A stretch of 64,000 nt of DNA from Meridianimarinicoccus sp. MJW13 (GTDB taxonomy: Bacteria > Pseudomonadota > Alphaproteobacteria > Rhodobacterales > Rhodobacteraceae), in the NCBI RefSeq assembly GCF_014901205.1, contig NZ_JACNMU010000004.1, positions 310,001 to 374,000 on the forward strand, written 5' to 3'. Below are positions 46,085-54,921 of the stretch, piece by piece (the first letter of the stretch is position 1; every line of letters starts with the position of its first letter). The notes under the pieces were generated by a model that had not been told where the DNA came from, ran no database searches, and worked only from the letters and a program-made list of their open reading frames with translations. A program made the position numbers and the translations under genes.

Positions 46085-46966
46085 TCAGTTGAAGTCCCGG
46101 AACAGGCGGGTTTCCGTGAACATGCTTTCCAGCCGCTCGATCCGGTCCCGGCCCTGGTTGGGCAGCCGGGTTTGAACCTGCGCCACCAGCGCCTCGACCA
46201 GCAGTTGCAGCGACAGGGTGGAGTCCCAGCCCGAAGGTGCCTCGACCATGGTGCTGAAGACGTGATCGGCGTGGCGGGCGATGGGCGAATTCCACTGGTC
46301 GGTGAAGAGCACGAGGGTGGCGCCGCTTTCGCGGCCCAGGCGGGCCAGTTTCGACAGGTCGCTTTCGTAGCGGCGGATGTCGAAGAGGATCAGGATGGCG
46401 GCGGCGTCCATGTCCAGCAGGTATTGCGGCCAGACAGCCGGGACGCGCCCCAGCGTGGTGACGCCGGGCCGGATGATCTGCAGGTGATTGTAGAGGTGAT
46501 CGGCCACCGACCGGGTGATGCGCCCGCCTTCCAGATAGACCGGGCGGTCGGTGTCGGCCAGAAGGGTCGCGACGGTGTCGAAAGCCTCGGTGTCGATCCG
46601 GTCCAGCGTGCCTTGCAGGTTGCGCACCGCGGCTTCGGCGAAGCGAAACAGGGTGTGGCTGTCGCCATGGTCCCGTTGGGCACGATCCAGCTTGGACGCC
46701 GGTTTTCGGATCTGTTCGGAGATTTCGCGACGCAGCGCGTCTTGCAGCCCGGTGAACCCGTCGAACCCCAGTTTGCGGGCCAGCCGCACCACCGTTGGCG
46801 AGGAAACCTTGGCCGTGTCCGCCAGTTCGGTGATCGATTGCAGCCCGGCCACCGGGTAGTCCTGCAAAAGGGCGCTGACCACTTGCCGCTCTGCCAGTGT
46901 CAGGGTGGCATGGCGTGCCTGCAGGATGTCCTTGACGATGGGTTGGGAAGCCTGGGTGCTGTGCAT
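46085..46966 (-). CDS. RpiR/MurR-family transcriptional regulator
   Basis: Regulator of 293 residues with an N-terminal RpiR helix-turn-helix domain (about 1-77; ELADTAKVSSPTVVRLARKLGFDGF) and a C-terminal SIS domain (about 125-260; PVYLEGGRITRSVADHLYNH, ILILFDIRRYESD) that usually senses a phosphosugar or other metabolite. It diverges from the hydrolase/ligase operon across 81 bases holding a 19-bp palindrome, so it probably controls that operon and itself. The inducer is unknown. Confidence 0.88.
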   Translation of the reverse strand: MHSTQASQPIVKDILQARHATLTLAERQVVSALLQDYPVAGLQSITELADTAKVSSPTVVRLARKLGFDGFTGLQDALRREISEQIRKPASKLDRAQRDHGDSHTLFRFAEAAVRNLQGTLDRIDTEAFDTVATLLADTDRPVYLEGGRITRSVADHLYNHLQIIRPGVTTLGRVPAVWPQYLLDMDAAAILILFDIRRYESDLSKLARLGRESGATLVLFTDQWNSPIARHADHVFSTMVEAPSGWDSTLSLQLLVEALVAQVQTRLPNQGRDRIERLESMFTETRLFRDFN

Positions 46967-47011
46967 GGCGAAAATTTATCGGGGTGCCCGAATGGGGTCT
47001 ACGAAATAATC

Positions 47012-47040
47012 TTGACAGAAATATATTTTCTGTAACGAAT
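47012..47040 (+). promoter_or_regulatory. promoter with overlapping palindromic operator
   Basis: ACAGAAA (47015-47021) and TTTCTGT (47027-47033) are perfect arms around TATAT, and TTGACA (47012-47017) overlaps the left arm as a consensus -35. With a 17-base spacer the -10 would be 47035-47040 (ACGAAT, weak), placing the transcript start at or just before the ATG at 47048. The most likely ligand is the adjacent RpiR regulator. Confidence 0.65.
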
Positions 47041-47047
47041 CCGATCA

Positions 47048-47830
47048 ATGGAAAGCCCTGACCCCCAACCGCTGTTGTCTGCCGCCGAAAGGCCGGCCTG
47101 TGTGCTGCACCGGCCAAAGGGACGCAGTGCTGTGGTTCTGGCCTGCGAACATGCGTCCAATGCCATCCCGGCCCGCCTGAACGGTCTGGGACTGGCGGTG
47201 GCGGACAGGACGTCGCATGCGGCCTGGGACATTGGCGCGCGGGATCTGTCGCTGGCCCTGTCGCAGCGTCTTGACGCGCCTCTGGTCCTGTCGCGGGTGT
47301 CGCGGCTGGTGCATGATTGCAACCGGCCGGTCGGGGCGGCCGATGCGATACCGGCACGTTCGGAAGTGATCGACGTGCCGGGCAACCGCGATCTGACGGC
47401 CACTGCGCGCCGCCGTCGCGAGACCGAGGTTCACGACCCGTTCCACGCCCTGTTGGGCAAGGTTCTGGCGGCGCATCCGGTGCCGCCGGTGCTGGTGACC
47501 CTCCACAGTTTCACCCCGGTCTATCACGGCAAACCGCGCGCGGTGGAGCTTGGGTTCCTGCATGGGGCCGATGATCGGCTGGCCCGTGCCATGCTGGCCG
47601 CCGTGCGCGACGTCTCGGGCTTGCAATCGGCGCTGAACGCCCCCTACGGTCCTTCCGACGGAGTCCTTCACACGCTGGAGGTTCACGCCCTGCCACAGGA
47701 GCGGCTGAACGTGATGATCGAAGTGCGCAACGACTTGCTGCGAACCCCGGCGCAATGCGCCGCCATGGCCGACACGCTGGCCGCCGCCCTGGCCGTGGCG
47801 CTGCCGGCCGCACAGGGCGCCGCCCCGTGA
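47048..47830 (+). CDS. N-formylglutamate amidohydrolase family hydrolase
   Basis: Predicted zinc-type amidohydrolase of 260 residues, PF05013-like. Metal-ligand motifs are ACEHASNAIP (about 34-43), a later HDCNRP (about 88-93) and LHSFTPVYHGK (about 150-160). LNVMIEVRNDLL near the C-terminus is also typical. Canonical members free glutamate from N-formylglutamate in histidine breakdown, but no hut genes are nearby. With the ligase and two dehydrogenases downstream it may instead cleave a gamma-glutamyl amide. No ribosome-binding site precedes the ATG, and the promoter position suggests a leaderless mRNA. Confidence 0.78.
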   Translation: MESPDPQPLLSAAERPACVLHRPKGRSAVVLACEHASNAIPARLNGLGLAVADRTSHAAWDIGARDLSLALSQRLDAPLVLSRVSRLVHDCNRPVGAADAIPARSEVIDVPGNRDLTATARRRRETEVHDPFHALLGKVLAAHPVPPVLVTLHSFTPVYHGKPRAVELGFLHGADDRLARAMLAAVRDVSGLQSALNAPYGPSDGVLHTLEVHALPQERLNVMIEVRNDLLRTPAQCAAMADTLAAALAVALPAAQGAAP

Positions 47831-47903
47831 TCGGCCACCGCCCGCCTGTCCTGTCCCAATCGCCTCTGGCGGCCGCGCGCCGCCGCAACACCGGAGTGCC
47901 GCA

Positions 47904-49268
47904 ATGCCCTCGCCCCTGACCTTTCACGCGCTGGAAACCGCTGTCGCCGAGGGCGATATCGACACCGTTCTGGTCTGCTTCACCGACATGCAGGGCCGGC
48001 TCATGGGCAAGCGCTTCCATGCCGCGAACTTCATCGAACACGGCCACAAGGAAACCCACTGCTGCAACTATCTGCTGGCCACGGATCAGGAGATGGCGAC
48101 GCCGGACGGCTATGCCGCCACCAGCTGGGCGCAGGGCTACGGCGACTATGTGATGCAACCCGACCTGAACACCCTGCGGCCGGTACCCTGGCTGGCGGGC
48201 ACGGCCATGGTGCTGTGCGATGTGCTGGATCATCATACCCACAAGCCGGTGCCGCATGATCCGCGCGCCATCCTGAAGGGGCAGGTGGCCCGTGCCGAAG
48301 CGATGGGGCTGACCCCGATGATGGCCTCGGAGCTGGAGTTCTTCCTGTTCGAGAAGGGCTTCGACGAGCTGCGCAAGGGCGGGTACCGCGACCTGGAGCC
48401 GTTCTCGGGCTACAATCAGGACTATCACATCCTGCAGACCACCAAGGAAGAGGACGTGATGCGGCCGATCCGCAACCACCTGTTCGCGGCGGGCATCCCG
48501 GTGGAAAACACCAAGGGCGAGGCCGAGACCGGGCAAGGGGAGTTGAACATCCGCTATGCCGACGCCCTGTCCTGTGCCGACCACCACACCATCGCCAAGC
48601 ACGCGGTAAAGGAAATCGCCTGGCAGGCGGGCCGCGCCGTGACCTTCCTGCCGAAATGGCGCGCCGACAAGGTGGGGTCATCCTCGCATCTGCACCAGTC
48701 GCTGTGGAAGGGCGACACCCCGGTGTTCCGCGATCCCGACGGCCCGCATGGCATGTCGGCGACGATGCAATCCTTCATGGCTGGCCAGTTGAAATATGCC
48801 GCCGATCTGACCTTCTTCCTGGCGCCCTATGTCAACAGCTACAAACGGTTCATGAAGGGCACCTTCGCGCCCACCAAGGCGGCCTGGTCGGTGGACAACC
48901 GCACCGCGGGTTTCCGGGTTTGCGGTGACGGCACGGCGGCGGTGCGCGTCGAATGCCGGATCGGCGGATCCGACCTGAATCCCTATCTCGCGCAGGCCGC
49001 ATTGCTGGCCGCCGGTCTGGCGGGCATCGAGGAAAAGCTGCCGCTGCCGTCCGAGACCGCCGGCGATGTCTATGCCGCCAAGGAGGCCCCCGAGATCCCG
49101 CAGACCCTGCGCGCCGCGATCGAGACGCTGCGCGGCTCGGCGATGCTGAAAGACGCACTCGGGGCAGACGTGGTGGCCCATTACACCCGCTGCGCCGAGG
49201 TCGAGCAGGAAGCCTTCGATGCCGCCGTCACCGATTGGGAAATTGCCCGCGGGTTCGAGCGTGCGTGA
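47904..49268 (+). CDS. glutamine synthetase-like gamma-glutamyl ligase
   Basis: Type I glutamine synthetase fold, 454 residues. Metal- and substrate-binding motifs present are MMASELEFFLF (about 134-144), GEAETGQGELNIRYADA (about 202-218), SSHLHQSLW (about 258-266) and RVECRIGGSDLNPYLAQAAL. The adenylylation-site region of housekeeping GlnA is not recognisable, and it stands with catabolic genes, so it probably joins glutamate to an amine rather than to ammonia, like PuuA, GlnA4 or GMAS. Candidate amines are ethanolamine or another amino alcohol, by context. It starts 73 bases after the hydrolase gene. Confidence 0.82.
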   Translation: MPSPLTFHALETAVAEGDIDTVLVCFTDMQGRLMGKRFHAANFIEHGHKETHCCNYLLATDQEMATPDGYAATSWAQGYGDYVMQPDLNTLRPVPWLAGTAMVLCDVLDHHTHKPVPHDPRAILKGQVARAEAMGLTPMMASELEFFLFEKGFDELRKGGYRDLEPFSGYNQDYHILQTTKEEDVMRPIRNHLFAAGIPVENTKGEAETGQGELNIRYADALSCADHHTIAKHAVKEIAWQAGRAVTFLPKWRADKVGSSSHLHQSLWKGDTPVFRDPDGPHGMSATMQSFMAGQLKYAADLTFFLAPYVNSYKRFMKGTFAPTKAAWSVDNRTAGFRVCGDGTAAVRVECRIGGSDLNPYLAQAALLAAGLAGIEEKLPLPSETAGDVYAAKEAPEIPQTLRAAIETLRGSAMLKDALGADVVAHYTRCAEVEQEAFDAAVTDWEIARGFERA

Positions 49269-49465
49269 TAGCCGGCATGTGAGGCACGATCCCAAGGCCC
49301 GGACGTTCCGTCGCGTCTGCGCAATGCGCCAGGACTGGACCGGCTGGCGGGCTTGGATGTAACGATTTGGAAAACGTCCCGTGCGCCAAGGGCGGTGCGG
49401 CTTTTTCCGTACGCAATTGCAGTTGGCAGGCCGGGCCTTCCGGCGACAAATGAAAAGGATCCTCC

Positions 49466-50839
49466 GTGACCACTCTGGAGTGTATTTCCCCCATCGACGG
49501 CGCCGTGCTGGTGCGCCGTCCCGCCCTTGCCCCCGATGCCGCTGCCGCCACGGTGGCGCGTGCCCGCGCGGCGCAACCGGCCTGGGCCGCCCGACCGCTG
49601 GCCGAGCGCGTGGCGCTGGTGCTGAAGGCCGTCGAGATCATCGGCAGCCAGACCGACCGCATGGCCGACGAACTGGCCCGCCAGATGGGCCGGCCAATCC
49701 GCTATGGCGGCGAATTCGGCGGGTTCGAGGAACGGGCCAAATACATGGCCTCCATCGCCGACAGCACGCTGGCGCCCATGGTGATCGAGGACAGCGCCGC
49801 CTTTACCCGCAAGATCGTCCGCGAACCGCATGGCGTGGTGCTGGTGGTGGCGCCGTGGAACTATCCCTACATGACCGCGATCAACACCATCGCGCCGGCG
49901 CTGATGGCAGGCAATGTGGTGGTGCTGAAACACGCGACACAAACGCTGCTGGTGGGCGAGCATCTGGCCGAAGCCTTCCATGCGGCGGGCGTGCCCGAGG
50001 ATGTTTTCGTCAATGTGGTGCTGGATCATGACACCACCAGCGGCCTGATCGCCGCGCGGGCCTTCGATTTCGTGAACTTCACCGGCTCGGTCGGCGGTGG
50101 CCGCGCGATGGAGCGGGCCGCGGCAGGCACTTTCACCCCGGTGGGCACCGAATTGGGCGGCAAGGATCCGGGCTATGTTCGGGCCGACGCAGATCTGGAC
50201 GCGGCTGTCGAGGGGCTGATGGATGGCGCGATGTTCAACTCGGGCCAATGCTGCTGCGGGATCGAGCGGATCTATGTCCACGAAAGCCTGTTCGATGCCT
50301 TCGTCGAGAAATGCACCGCGCTGGTGAAAACCCACAAGCTGGGCAACCCGCTGGACCCCGAGACCACAATCGGCCCGATGGCCCATGCCCGCTTTGCCGC
50401 CACGGTGCGCGCCCAGATCGCCGATGCGGTAGCGGCAGGCGCCACGAGCCATCTGGCACCCTTCGAGGGCGACGACGGCGGCGCCTACCTGTCGCCGCAG
50501 ATCCTGACCGGCGTGACCCACGACATGGAGATCATGCGCGAAGAAAGCTTCGGCCCCGTGGTCGGCATCATGCCGGTGGCCAATGACGACGAGGCGATCG
50601 CGCTGATGAACGACTGCCAGTACGGGTTGACGGCGGCGATCTATACCGCCGATGCCGAGGCGGCGGGCCGTATCGCCGATCAGCTGCAATCGGGCACGGT
50701 CTTCATGAACCGCTGCGACTATCTTGATCCGGCGCTGTGCTGGACCGGTTGCAAGGACACCGGATGCGGTGCCGGTCTGTCGGTGCTGGGCTTCCACGCC
50801 CTGACCCGCCCGAAATCCCTTCACTTCAAGAAAGGCTGA
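49466..50839 (+). CDS. NAD(P)-dependent aldehyde dehydrogenase
   Basis: Aldehyde dehydrogenase of 457 residues. The cofactor segment is VVAPWNYPYMTAINTI (about 129-144), the catalytic Glu is in GTELGGKDPGYV (about 231) and the catalytic Cys is in MFNSGQCCCGIERI (about 255-268), which has three adjacent cysteines. It is near the shorter end for the superfamily. It starts at GTG (49466) behind AAGGA, after a 197-bp gap that shows no gene or clear terminator. The next gene begins 3 bases after its stop. I infer oxidation of an amino aldehyde made by the following alcohol dehydrogenase. Confidence 0.85.
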   Translation: MTTLECISPIDGAVLVRRPALAPDAAAATVARARAAQPAWAARPLAERVALVLKAVEIIGSQTDRMADELARQMGRPIRYGGEFGGFEERAKYMASIADSTLAPMVIEDSAAFTRKIVREPHGVVLVVAPWNYPYMTAINTIAPALMAGNVVVLKHATQTLLVGEHLAEAFHAAGVPEDVFVNVVLDHDTTSGLIAARAFDFVNFTGSVGGGRAMERAAAGTFTPVGTELGGKDPGYVRADADLDAAVEGLMDGAMFNSGQCCCGIERIYVHESLFDAFVEKCTALVKTHKLGNPLDPETTIGPMAHARFAATVRAQIADAVAAGATSHLAPFEGDDGGAYLSPQILTGVTHDMEIMREESFGPVVGIMPVANDDEAIALMNDCQYGLTAAIYTADAEAAGRIADQLQSGTVFMNRCDYLDPALCWTGCKDTGCGAGLSVLGFHALTRPKSLHFKKG

Positions 50840-50842
50840 GCC

Positions 50843-51988
50843 ATGAGCCCGGTTGCCAATTGGTCCTATCCCACTGCCATCCGTTTCGGCGCCGGCCGGA
50901 TCTCCGAGATCGCCGAGGCCTGTGCGGTCGCCGGCATCACGCGCCCGCTGCTGGTCACCGACAAGGGGCTGGCCGGGCTGGAGATCACCGCCCGGACCCT
51001 GGACCTGATGGAGGCCGCCGGGCTGGGTCGCGCCATGTTCTCGGATGTGGATCCCAACCCGACCGGGGCAAATGTCGAGGCCGGGGTCGCCGCCTACAGG
51101 GCCGGGGGCCATGACGGGGTGATCGCATTTGGTGGCGGCTCGGGGCTGGATCTGGGCAAGGTGGTTGCGTTTCAGGCCGGGCAGACCCGCCCTTTGTGGG
51201 ATTTCGAGGATATTGGCGACTGGTGGACCCGCGCCGATGCCGCGGCCATTGCGCCGGTCGTGGCCGTGCCGACCACCGCCGGGACCGGCTCGGAAGTGGG
51301 ACGCGCGGGCATTATCACCAATGAAGAGGCCGCCGAGAAGAAGATCATCTTCCACCCGAAGATGTTGCCGGTGCAGGTGATCTGCGATCCGGAACTGACC
51401 GTGGGCATGCCGCCCGCGATCACCGCCGGCACCGGGATGGACGCCTTCGCCCATTGTCTTGAGGCCTATTGCTCGCCGCACTATCACCCGATGTCGCAGG
51501 GCATGGCGCTGGAAGGCATGCGGCTGGTCAAGGAGTACCTGCCGCGCGCCTATGCCGATGGGGCGGATCTTGAGGCCCGCGCGCATATGATGTCGGCGGC
51601 GGCCATGGGGGCTACGGCCTTCCAGAAGGGGCTGGGCGCGATCCATGCCCTCAGCCACCCCCTGGGCGCGCATCATCACACCCATCACGGCACCACCAAC
51701 GCGGTCTGCATGGTCGAGGTGCTGAAGTTCAACCGCCCCGCCGCAGAGGACGTCATCACCCGCGCCGCCGCCTATCTGGGCATCGACGGCGGCTATGACG
51801 GGTTCATCGCCTTCGTGGACGCTTTGAACCGCCGGTTGAACATTCCCGCCACCCTGACCGAGCTGGGAGTCACCGATCCCGATCTGGACCGGCTGACCGC
51901 CGATGCGCTGCGCGACCCTTCCGTCGGCGGCAACCCGGTCAAGATGACGGCCGAAAACACCCGCGCGCTGTTCGAAGCCCTGCTGTGA
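50843..51988 (+). CDS. iron-containing alcohol dehydrogenase
   Basis: Fe-dependent group III alcohol dehydrogenase of 381 residues. NAD-binding GGGSGLDLGK (about 97-106) and VPTTAGTGSEVGRAGIITNE (about 143-162) are visible. Metal ligands are expected from AGTGMDAFAHCLEAYCSP and from HALSHPLGAHHHTHHGTTNA (about 269-288), a histidine-rich stretch denser than usual. It follows the aldehyde dehydrogenase gene by 3 bases; the pair would take a primary alcohol to an acid. Its TGA overlaps the GTG start of the di-haem gene. Confidence 0.87.
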   Translation: MSPVANWSYPTAIRFGAGRISEIAEACAVAGITRPLLVTDKGLAGLEITARTLDLMEAAGLGRAMFSDVDPNPTGANVEAGVAAYRAGGHDGVIAFGGGSGLDLGKVVAFQAGQTRPLWDFEDIGDWWTRADAAAIAPVVAVPTTAGTGSEVGRAGIITNEEAAEKKIIFHPKMLPVQVICDPELTVGMPPAITAGTGMDAFAHCLEAYCSPHYHPMSQGMALEGMRLVKEYLPRAYADGADLEARAHMMSAAAMGATAFQKGLGAIHALSHPLGAHHHTHHGTTNAVCMVEVLKFNRPAAEDVITRAAAYLGIDGGYDGFIAFVDALNRRLNIPATLTELGVTDPDLDRLTADALRDPSVGGNPVKMTAENTRALFEALL

Positions 51989-53337
51989 GCCTTTCGCAGC
52001 GGGTACGGGCGGGCGGGCACCCGGTTCTGACGCTGATCCTCGGGATCGGGGCCGGGGTCGGGGCCGCTTGGGCCGATCCGCTGCCCGCGCCGCTGGCTGA
52101 CGCCGACTATCTGCCGGTCAACCGGGCCGCCGCCGAGATCGGGCAGCTGCTGTTCTACGATCCGATCCTGTCGGGCAATCGCAATATCTCGTGTGCCACC
52201 TGTCATCATCCGAAATTCGCCACCAGCGACGGGGTCAGCCTGTCGCTGGGCGAGGGCGGGCAGGGGCTTGGCCCCGAGCGCAGTGTCAATCCCGCCAACC
52301 CGCCCGAGCAACGCATCCCGCGCAATGCGCCGGCGCTGTTCAACATGGGCGCCCGCGAGATCACGGTGCTGTTCCACGATGGCCGGATCGAGGTGGACCG
52401 GACCCGCAAAGCCGGCTTCCGCACCCCGTTGGAGGACGAGATGGTCACCGGGTTCGCGGGCATCCTGTCGGGGCAGACCATGTTTCCGGTGCTGAGCCAG
52501 GACGAGATGGCGGGACATTATTCCGAGAACGAGGTCAGCCGCGCGGTGCGGCAGGGGCTGATCACCGGGCCGGGCGGGGCCTGGGATCTGATTGCCGCCC
52601 GCGTCGCGGCCCTTCCTGCCTATGAAGCGGGGTTCGCGGCCGCCTATCCCGAGACCGCGACGCGAGGCATTGCCTTCACCGATATCTCCAACGCGGTGGC
52701 CGAGTTCATGGCCTTTGAATGGCGCAGCGACACCAGCGCCTATGATGCCCATCTTCGCGACGAGACGCCGTTGCAGGGCACGGCGGCCGAAGGCATGGCG
52801 CTGTTCTATGGCAAGGCCGGGTGCAGCACCTGTCACTCCGGTCCGCTGCTGACCGACCACGGGTTTCACGCCATGGGCCAGCCGCAGCTTGGCCCCGGCA
52901 AGGCGGCGCGCTTTGAAAACCACGCCCGCGACGAAGGCCGATTTCGGGTGACAGGTGACGCGGATGCCCTGTTTGCCTTCCGCACCCCCAGCCTGCGCAA
53001 TGTCACCCGCACCGGGCCGTGGGGCCATGCCGGGGCTTATTCGGATCTGCGGGCGTTCCTGACCGCGCATCTGGACCCGGACAGCGCCATCACCAGCTAC
53101 GACCGTGGACAGGCGGTGCTGCCGGATCTGCCGGGAGTTTCGGATTGGCGCATCCTCGACGATCCCGCCGCCAGTGCCGAGATTGCCGTGCGGGCCACCT
53201 TGCCGCCGGTGTCCTTGACGACGACAGAGATGGAGGCGCTGTTGGCTTTCCTGACCGCTTTGGAAGACCCCGTGGCGCTCAGCGGGCGTTTGGGCATTCC
53301 CGACCGGGTGCCCAGTGGTCTGTCCATAGATCGCTGA
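51985..53337 (+). CDS. MauG/cytochrome-c-peroxidase-like di-haem protein
   Basis: Periplasmic c-type di-haem enzyme of 450 residues. A signal-like N-terminus ends near GVGAAWA, before DPLPAPLA. Haem-binding motifs are CATCH (70-74) and CSTCH (280-284). RNAPALFNMGAR and FRTPSLRNVTRTGPWGHAG are typical of the MauG/MbnH/CCP group. Translation probably starts at GTG 51985, inside the preceding alcohol dehydrogenase stop (GTGA), which places it in the same operon. It could act as a peroxidase, or oxidise residues of a partner protein as MauG and MbnH do. The convergent beta-propeller gene is a possible partner. Confidence 0.85.
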   Translation: MSLSQRVRAGGHPVLTLILGIGAGVGAAWADPLPAPLADADYLPVNRAAAEIGQLLFYDPILSGNRNISCATCHHPKFATSDGVSLSLGEGGQGLGPERSVNPANPPEQRIPRNAPALFNMGAREITVLFHDGRIEVDRTRKAGFRTPLEDEMVTGFAGILSGQTMFPVLSQDEMAGHYSENEVSRAVRQGLITGPGGAWDLIAARVAALPAYEAGFAAAYPETATRGIAFTDISNAVAEFMAFEWRSDTSAYDAHLRDETPLQGTAAEGMALFYGKAGCSTCHSGPLLTDHGFHAMGQPQLGPGKAARFENHARDEGRFRVTGDADALFAFRTPSLRNVTRTGPWGHAGAYSDLRAFLTAHLDPDSAITSYDRGQAVLPDLPGVSDWRILDDPAASAEIAVRATLPPVSLTTTEMEALLAFLTALEDPVALSGRLGIPDRVPSGLSIDR

Positions 53338-53343
53338 ACCGGG

Positions 53344-54870
53344 TCAGTTCTGCCGGCTCAGCGTGATCGCCTGATTGGCCGTCACCTGTTGCCAGTCTGT
53401 CGCGGTGCCATCGGGCCAGATCACCCGCCCCTCGGCCCCCGTCGCGGCCCCAAGCCCAAAATGCAACGGCCCGGCCTGTCCCCCGGCATGGCCTCCGCCC
53501 ACGGTCATCTCCTGCCGCTGGACGCCCCGCGCCGTGCGTATCTCGACCCAGGCGCCGATGGCAAAGCGGTTGGGCCTGTCCTGCACCGGTGTCACGGCCA
53601 GCCAGTTGCCTGCATCCGCCGTGGTATTTTCCCAGACTTCCAGCGGCGCGCGGCGGTTGACGACGATCAGGTCCAGCAGACCATCGCCGTTCAGATCGCT
53701 CAGCGCCGCGCCGCGCGACCGCTCCATCGTGGCGACCCCGGCCTCGACCGAGGCCTCGACAAAGGTGCCATCGGCCCGTTGCAGCAGCAGATTGTTGGGA
53801 TCGCGCATGGCGTTTCCGGGCATCTGCTGGACATTGCCCTTGGCGATGAACAGATCGGCCAGACCGTCGTTGTCCACATCGCCGAACTGCGCATGCCAGC
53901 CGGTCGAGGGCCGCCCGTCATCTCCGACATGGGGCCGCGTGGCTTGCGAGCCTTGACCCCAGGGCGCATTGCGAAACCCAGTCTCTCCGTCCGAGAACTG
54001 CAGCAACTGGTCGCCCATCGAGGTCAGCATCACGTCCGGGCGTCCGTCGGCGTTCAGATCCCGGCTGGCGATGCCCATGCCCCAGATCGAAACCCTTTCC
54101 CAGCCGTCCTTGGGCCCCAGCAGGCGCAGCGGCGACATCTGCCACATCTGCTCGGCCCCCGCGCGCACGTAGTAGTGGCGATCGTTGGACAGCCGCAGAT
54201 CGGCCCGGCCCCGGCGCGCCCAGTCGGAAAACAGTGCCGACAGCGCGCAATAGCCCGGCTCCAGCAGGGTTTCGGGGCCATAGCCTGTGCCTTCAGGGCG
54301 CAGCAGGATGTTGGCATCGCAGGCCTCGAACGGGCCTTCGGGGTCGGTCCGGTCCACATAGTTGCCGATGGCCAGCGTCGGGCGGGTCTGGCCCGGCTCG
54401 AATGTGGCGGCAAAGGCGGTGGACCAGCGGTCGGCCTGCGGCAGCCCCCAGGCGGCGGTGGCATCTTCGAACCGGCAATCGCCCAACCCGCGCAGGGCGA
54501 TGTTGGGACCAACACGCAGCACGAACAGGTCCAGCACCCCGTCGCCATCCATGTCCAGCGGATAGGCGCCGGTGACCCCGGTCACCCCGGCCAGGGGTTG
54601 CCCCTCGGCCCGGTCGAATTTCAGCGGCGCGCCAGTGGTGGCTGTTGTGTTCAGATACAGCGGGCTGGGATTGCTGCCGCCCGCGGGCAGAAACTCGGGC
54701 AGGCCGTCGCCGTTGCAGTCAAAAACCGCGACGCCGCCGCCCACGAAATGCTCCCACCCGCCGTCATAGACATGGGCCGGGCCGGGCAGATCGGTTGCGC
54801 GGTCGGTGAACGTTGGACCCGCCGCCGCCGATCCCGCCGCCAGCAACGCCCCGCAAATGACCTTGAACAT
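53344..54870 (-). CDS. exported CRTAC1-type FG-GAP/UnbV beta-propeller protein
   Basis: Exported protein of 508 residues. The signal peptide (FKVICGALLAAGSAAAG) is followed by FG-GAP/VCBS-type repeats with calcium-loop motifs: DCNGDGLPEF, DMDGDGVLDLF, DLNADGRPDVM, DVDNDGLADLF and DLNGDGLLDLI. A C-terminal ASPIC/UnbV domain (AIGAWVEIRTARGVQRQEMT, VIWPDGTATDW) completes the CRTAC1 layout. The start at 54870 is chosen because GGGGAGG lies 6 bases upstream. It converges on the di-haem gene with only 6 bases between stops. Function is unknown; the fold suits protein-protein or carbohydrate binding in the periplasm. Confidence 0.82.
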   Translation of the reverse strand: MFKVICGALLAAGSAAAGPTFTDRATDLPGPAHVYDGGWEHFVGGGVAVFDCNGDGLPEFLPAGGSNPSPLYLNTTATTGAPLKFDRAEGQPLAGVTGVTGAYPLDMDGDGVLDLFVLRVGPNIALRGLGDCRFEDATAAWGLPQADRWSTAFAATFEPGQTRPTLAIGNYVDRTDPEGPFEACDANILLRPEGTGYGPETLLEPGYCALSALFSDWARRGRADLRLSNDRHYYVRAGAEQMWQMSPLRLLGPKDGWERVSIWGMGIASRDLNADGRPDVMLTSMGDQLLQFSDGETGFRNAPWGQGSQATRPHVGDDGRPSTGWHAQFGDVDNDGLADLFIAKGNVQQMPGNAMRDPNNLLLQRADGTFVEASVEAGVATMERSRGAALSDLNGDGLLDLIVVNRRAPLEVWENTTADAGNWLAVTPVQDRPNRFAIGAWVEIRTARGVQRQEMTVGGGHAGGQAGPLHFGLGAATGAEGRVIWPDGTATDWQQVTANQAITLSRQN

Positions 54871-54921
54871 CGGCATCCTCCCCGCGCGCACCATGATCCG
54901 CAGGCAGGGGCGAGGCAAGCT

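Follow-up and report, generated by a model that had tools for sequence, protein, structure and literature searches.

Results and Discussion

The window analyzed here, a stretch of 64,000 nucleotides from Meridianimarinicoccus sp. MJW13, carries, divergent from a gene for an RpiR-type regulator, genes for a hydrolase of the formylglutamate-amidohydrolase (FGase) family, a glutamine-synthetase-like ligase, an aldehyde dehydrogenase, and an iron alcohol dehydrogenase, which set very probably constitutes the operon by which Phaeobacter and its relatives are known to catabolize ethanolamine through gamma-glutamyl intermediates, in a form without the in-operon tripartite ATP-independent periplasmic (TRAP) transporter. 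The pathway itself is already published; the one departure here concerns uptake, the operon being without its customary transporter. The identity, order, and conservation of the genes, an altered site in the ligase, a separate HutG in the same genome, and the missing transporter were all observed directly.

In the proposed route the RpiR regulator would control the divergent promoter and the ligase would join glutamate to ethanolamine with the use of ATP. The iron alcohol dehydrogenase would then oxidize gamma-glutamylethanolamide to the aldehyde, from which the aldehyde dehydrogenase would yield gamma-glutamylglycine, which product the FGase-family hydrolase would finally split into glutamate and glycine; the ethanolamine may enter the cell through an unlinked transporter or by diffusion. 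This chemistry—glutamylation of ethanolamine, oxidation to the acid, and release of glutamate and glycine—had been put forward in an initial annotation of the window and is very likely right, being the route published for Phaeobacter sp. MED193 (PMC10132767). What that annotation considered new, by contrast, has precedents: a releasing enzyme of the FGase fold is named in the same paper and proposed in another (PMC6529630), and the dehydrogenase for the alcohol step is likewise named (PMC10132767).

Conservation of the gene set

From a scan of genome_contigs with the hydrolase we kept the best 80 of the 176 stretches that encode a relative. All eight genes (RpiR, hydrolase, EtoV, EtoW, EtoX, ligase, aldehyde dehydrogenase, and iron alcohol dehydrogenase) were matched in 65 of these 80 loci, and in 63 of the 80 they stood in the same order and on the expected strands, with the iron alcohol dehydrogenase of some of those complete loci being cut by the locus end. 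With gene content and order both retained in 63 of the 80 fetched relatives, the grouping of these genes is real and not a product of chance. Of the two other loci with matches to all eight genes, one (L013) has EtoX ahead of EtoV and EtoW, while that of Cocleimonas flava (L057; 8001-14582) begins with the hydrolase, ligase, and aldehyde dehydrogenase, places the TRAP genes after the latter, and has no close iron alcohol dehydrogenase, the only match being weak (32%) and located beyond RpiR. An EtoX match was lacking in 11 of the 80 loci, seven of them short (L005, L020, L033, L040, L051, L069, and L071; 4.5-10.7 kb) and four long (L024, L043, L054, and L077). Of the 61 whole genomes compared, namely that of the window and those of 60 relatives, 24 gave a ligase match at E <=1e-100.

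Relationship to published operons

The MED193 operon (MED193_10021-10056), published in 2023, encodes RpiR, the gamma-glutamylglycine amidohydrolase GGAH, EtoV, EtoW, EtoX, ETAGA, GAADDH, and GETADH (PMC10132767). The window resembles that operon in having RpiR, an FGase-type GGAH, a ligase, and an aldehyde and an alcohol dehydrogenase in the same order, whereas the MED193 operon contains EtoVWX between hydrolase and ligase and the window does not, the two having been compared by gene order and names only. In MED193 the hydrolase, EtoX, the ligase, and both dehydrogenases are raised on phosphorylethanolamine (PMC10132767, Table 2), and the Kd of EtoX for ethanolamine is 7.9 uM (PMC10132767). 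The substrate, the induction, and the affinity of the binding protein that we assume for the system would be those given in papers on other organisms.

A second precedent comes from Streptomyces coelicolor, whose GlnA4 was reported in 2019 as a gamma-glutamylethanolamide synthetase, along with the suggestion that an enzyme of the formylglutamate-amidohydrolase family, acting as a gamma-glutamylglycine hydrolase, frees glycine (PMC6529630). That route and the one predicted for the window are alike in beginning with a gamma-glutamylethanolamide ligase and ending with an FGase-family hydrolase, in Streptomyces a proposed one; they differ in that the figure legend for S. coelicolor assigns the alcohol step to a short-chain dehydrogenase and includes a gene for a glutamine amidotransferase, and in that the regulator there is EpuRI.

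The ligase

The known structures 5dm3 and 11zs matched the ligase with 707.7 and 567.5 bits, respectively, while its scores stayed under the NCBIfam cut-offs for GlnA (TIGR00653; 246.9 versus 429.15), for type III enzymes (246.1 versus 469.6), and for the gamma-glutamylputrescine synthetase GGputSyn (206.5 versus 650). The cut-offs therefore rule out a GlnA-type assignment and, together with the score of the aldehyde dehydrogenase against PuuC (206.1 versus 850), a Puu-type one as well. The catalytic part of the genome's own GlnA (L085, contig C12) attained 525.3 against TIGR00653. In the alignment of these two proteins the motif GTFAP of the ligase faces GFEAP of GlnA, so that Phe replaces the Glu that we take to be the residue closing the ammonia site. 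In the same genome, four further paralogues of ligase type (L086, L088, L089, and L090) are also without this Glu, and the change therefore marks amine ligases in general rather than an ethanolamine ligase. The window ligase is 71-84% identical to its counterparts in all five same-genus genomes in which a ligase was matched, where the gene adjoins EtoX.

Two other glutamylation routes invite comparison. In the Puu putrescine pathway of Escherichia coli the amine is glutamylated, oxidized, and hydrolyzed by the same logic, PuuD having the fold of a peptidase-C26-type hydrolase; the window differs in possessing an FGase in its place and in having a ligase and an aldehyde dehydrogenase that fall far short of the GGputSyn and PuuC cut-offs. 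In the isopropylamine route, the amine is gamma-glutamylated by IpuC on the way to an amino alcohol; an IpuC encoded on a Paenarthrobacter plasmid shares 39.3% identity with the window ligase, which value lies far below those of the same-operon orthologues.

Hydrolase and dehydrogenases

At a threshold of 0.001 the hydrolase matched no NCBIfam model, the HutG model TIGR02017 included, but gave 211.9 bits with the structure 2odf. By contrast, an FGase paralogue on contig C3 of the same genome reached 369.4 bits with TIGR02017 (cut-off 278.75) and is located between frames that on visual inspection appear to be hutH and hutU, i.e., in a hut-like run. The 80 orthologues of the hydrolase and the HutG on C3 have in common His35, Arg86, Asp90, Asn92, Arg93, His153, and Glu225, whereas an orthologue-specific set (e.g., Cys33, Glu34, Trp60, Thr151, Phe155, and His213) is present in 2odf and not in HutG. 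Judged by these sequence comparisons, the window hydrolase is distinct from the HutG of its own genome. Two more FGase-family paralogues were observed there, L127:9217-10026 on contig C14, which is flanked by transporter-like frames, and L126:8804-9676 on contig C2.

Both dehydrogenases remained under every NCBIfam cut-off shown, PuuC being among those for the aldehyde dehydrogenase and 4-hydroxybutyrate dehydrogenase (361.6 versus 500) being the best for the iron alcohol dehydrogenase. As to the ammonia-lyase route, a search for EutB produced no match in the genome, while the same search matched in the Escherichia coli control.

The missing transporter and an unlinked EtoX homologue

Of the 72 loci in which both genes were matched, 67 separate hydrolase from ligase by at least 2990 bases, measured between match ends, four by 50-226 bases, and one by 1783 bases; since those four other loci also have such short gaps, an in-operon EtoVWX is to be regarded as a usual and not a defining part. 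Within the genus, etoVWX occupies the site in the four genomes whose stretch spans the cluster (L130-L133), a fifth (L129, a 4.5-kb contig) has EtoX pieces directly before the ligase, and a sixth has no ligase match. Because the same-genus loci carry these genes or pieces there, it is likely, though not proved, that the transporter was lost from this site. The EtoX pieces of that fifth, partial genome (G001; L129:3866-4542) are in themselves peculiar in being approximately 95% identical to the EtoX of Ruegeria pomeroyi, while the other same-genus EtoX proteins are at about 64%; an exchange or a misplaced contig is possible.

The R. pomeroyi EtoX, whose gene stands in the conserved order, scored 641.7 bits against the structure 4uab, presumably that of Csal_0678. 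Csal_0678, from Chromohalobacter salexigens, binds ethanolamine (PMC4646407), which compound is an unusual TRAP ligand (PMC4646407, PMC5812351).

In the genome under study we found a single close EtoX homologue, of about 63% identity (62.9-64%), on contig C12 together with EtoW and EtoV (43%), the next EtoX match being at 29%; the etoVWX-like genes there span C12:444566-447523. A reading of the gene as broken by an inner TGA was discarded: that TGA is the natural stop of a 357-residue frame which ends just short of the query end. This TRAP locus (L123:10567-18477, corresponding to C12:444566-452476) adjoins genes for a DeoR-type regulator, for an FAD oxidoreductase that resembles GlpA and has a BFD-like domain, for a further oxidoreductase of the pyridine-nucleotide type, and for an FGGY kinase, which surroundings we read as glycerol or glycerol-3-phosphate genes. 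The arrangement is shared by genome G036 (L157:2334-10057), and in G014 a piece of the regulator lies beside the TRAP genes (L159).

A FastTree phylogeny of 93 EtoX sequences placed the C12 protein in a clade (support 1.0) with those of G036, G010, G014, Cocleimonas (L057), and G009 (L160), of which the L057 and L160 members sit in ligase-bearing clusters. All six carry D96A, T175G, F176V, D218A, T220E, and other changes at positions at least 97% conserved in 79 others, namely the remaining EtoX proteins with a ligase near; these changes may or may not alter the ligand. Ethanolamine uptake might have been uncoupled from the operon and moved to this clade beside glycerol or glycerol-3-phosphate genes, or else the ligand of the clade might now be glycerol; we consider this proposal unlikely. 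Were uptake to have moved, one TRAP clade would serve the glycerol and the ethanolamine halves of phospholipid head-group breakdown. Neither the TRAP-less form nor an EtoX clade beside glycerol genes turned up in the literature, in searches not aimed directly at either. The ethanolamine-permease model TIGR00908 (EAT) had no match in the genome, although that test is a weak one, the control having matched in 11 of 14 genomes with none over the cut-off.

Promoter-like and possible operator sequences

The divergent gap of the window was aligned with those of 55 loci whose RpiR is at least 54% identical, and the motif comparison rests on this alignment of 56 gaps. TTGACA occurs in 55 of the 56 (mean 2.3 and maximum 8 in 200 mononucleotide shuffles), which count indicates conservation and not independent evidence, since the rows are related; the longer TTGACA-N17-NNNNAT occurs in 35 (mean 0.15 and maximum 2 in as many shuffles). 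The inverted repeat lying over the promoter-like element is short and imperfect: a centre-out scan with one mismatch allowed gave arms of 5-6 bases only. The repeat may accordingly be a matter of chance.

Weighing the alternatives

Several observations count against assigning the window to ethanolamine catabolism. The three TRAP genes etoVWX are not in the operon, only 73 bases separating hydrolase from ligase, and the only close EtoX homologue of the genome belongs to a different contig, where its neighbors are of the glycerol type. The exact box CTACAGAA, found in 28 of the 56 divergent gaps, is absent from the window; moreover, neither this motif nor TTCTGTAG, TTGACAGAA, or TTCTGTCAA, the only ones tried, was found in the 19.9 kb around the C12 TRAP locus. 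In addition, the MED193 EtoX is also raised under phosphate starvation alone (PMC10132767, Table 2), and the enzyme activities that we attribute to this strain are predicted ones.

The absence of the TRAP genes might mean that the same chemistry acts on some other small amino alcohol, such as 2-amino-1-propanol or 3-aminopropanol, the ethanolamine transporter having been lost; this alternative we hold to be quite improbable in view of the high identity of the ligase to same-genus ligases beside EtoX and of the retention of the regulator, the promoter element, and all four enzymes. The broad family names, taken alone, would allow an assortment of unrelated neighbors, with general dehydrogenases next to a redundant N-formylglutamate hydrolase and an additional glutamine synthetase, but the identical ordering of the complete set in 63 of the 80 loci, the presence of a separate HutG and GlnA in the genome, and the co-induction of the MED193 proteins (PMC10132767) make such a view highly improbable. 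No more credible is a decaying remnant that lost uptake and no longer runs, as the site now lacking transporter genes and the absent CTACAGAA box might suggest, given that the frames of all four enzymes and of the regulator are uninterrupted and complete and that the TTGACA element is kept.

The assignment to the ethanolamine operon corrects a generic annotation, in that names referring to ethanolamine catabolism suit the FGase, glutamine synthetase, and alcohol dehydrogenase genes best, and it shows that the transporter module can part from that of the enzymes, which possibility matters for surveys in which ethanolamine use is judged from etoX alone; for the knowledge of the pathway itself it has little consequence.

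Layout of the locus and the di-haem gene

The features are collected in Table 1. The initial description of the genes and of the divergent RpiR-type regulator is confirmed by the open frames, by the Pfam matches, which for the plus-strand genes all exceed the curated cut-off, and by the promoter-like element. All five genes of the plus-strand run at 47048-53337 are open frames, with the regulator gene opposite; the ligase and aldehyde dehydrogenase genes are 197 bases apart and the two dehydrogenase genes 3, while the iron alcohol dehydrogenase and di-haem genes overlap by 4.

Table 1. Positions of the annotated features within the window
Feature	Position	Strand	Basis
RpiR-family regulator	46085-46966	-	Pfam HTH_6 (RpiR) and SIS; divergent from operon; RpiR adjoins hydrolase in relatives' loci
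Possible operator, inverted repeat	47010-47038		Arms 47010-47021 and 47027-47038, 83% complementary; one of two pairs found
Promoter-like element TTGACA-N17-ACGAAT	47012-47040	+	Sequence; TTGACA kept among relatives
FGase-family hydrolase, GGAH orthologue by gene order	47048-47830	+	Pfam FGase 124.7 bits
Gap where relatives carry etoVWX	47831-47903		73 bases
Glutamine-synthetase-like ligase, predicted ethanolamine gamma-glutamylase (ETAGA)	47904-49268	+	Pfam Gln-synt_C 326.3 bits
Aldehyde dehydrogenase, predicted gamma-glutamylacetylaldehydeamide dehydrogenase (GAADDH)	49466-50839	+	Pfam Aldedh 402.8 bits; published order
Iron alcohol dehydrogenase, predicted gamma-glutamylethanolamide dehydrogenase (GETADH)	50843-51988	+	Pfam Fe-ADH 155.8 and ADH_Fe_C 141.4 bits; published order
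Di-haem MauG-like protein, neighbor	51985-53337	+	Pfam CCP_MauG 108.2 bits

The inclusion of the di-haem gene in the pathway operon, as first annotated, did not hold, and we rejected its product as a fifth pathway step, since the gene follows the iron alcohol dehydrogenase in only one (L007) of the 55 genome_contigs loci long enough to leave it 700 bases or more. The same succession occurs in the same-genus L131 and L132, there together with FG-GAP/UnbV and Lrp genes downstream, L132 and L007 being probably the same organism. The di-haem gene is a neighbor within the genus and its product probably no part of the pathway. In the window (51985-54918) the di-haem gene, like the operon, is convergent with an FG-GAP/UnbV gene, beyond which lies a gene for an Lrp-type regulator, and this neighborhood, the Lrp gene included, is kept in L131 and L132.

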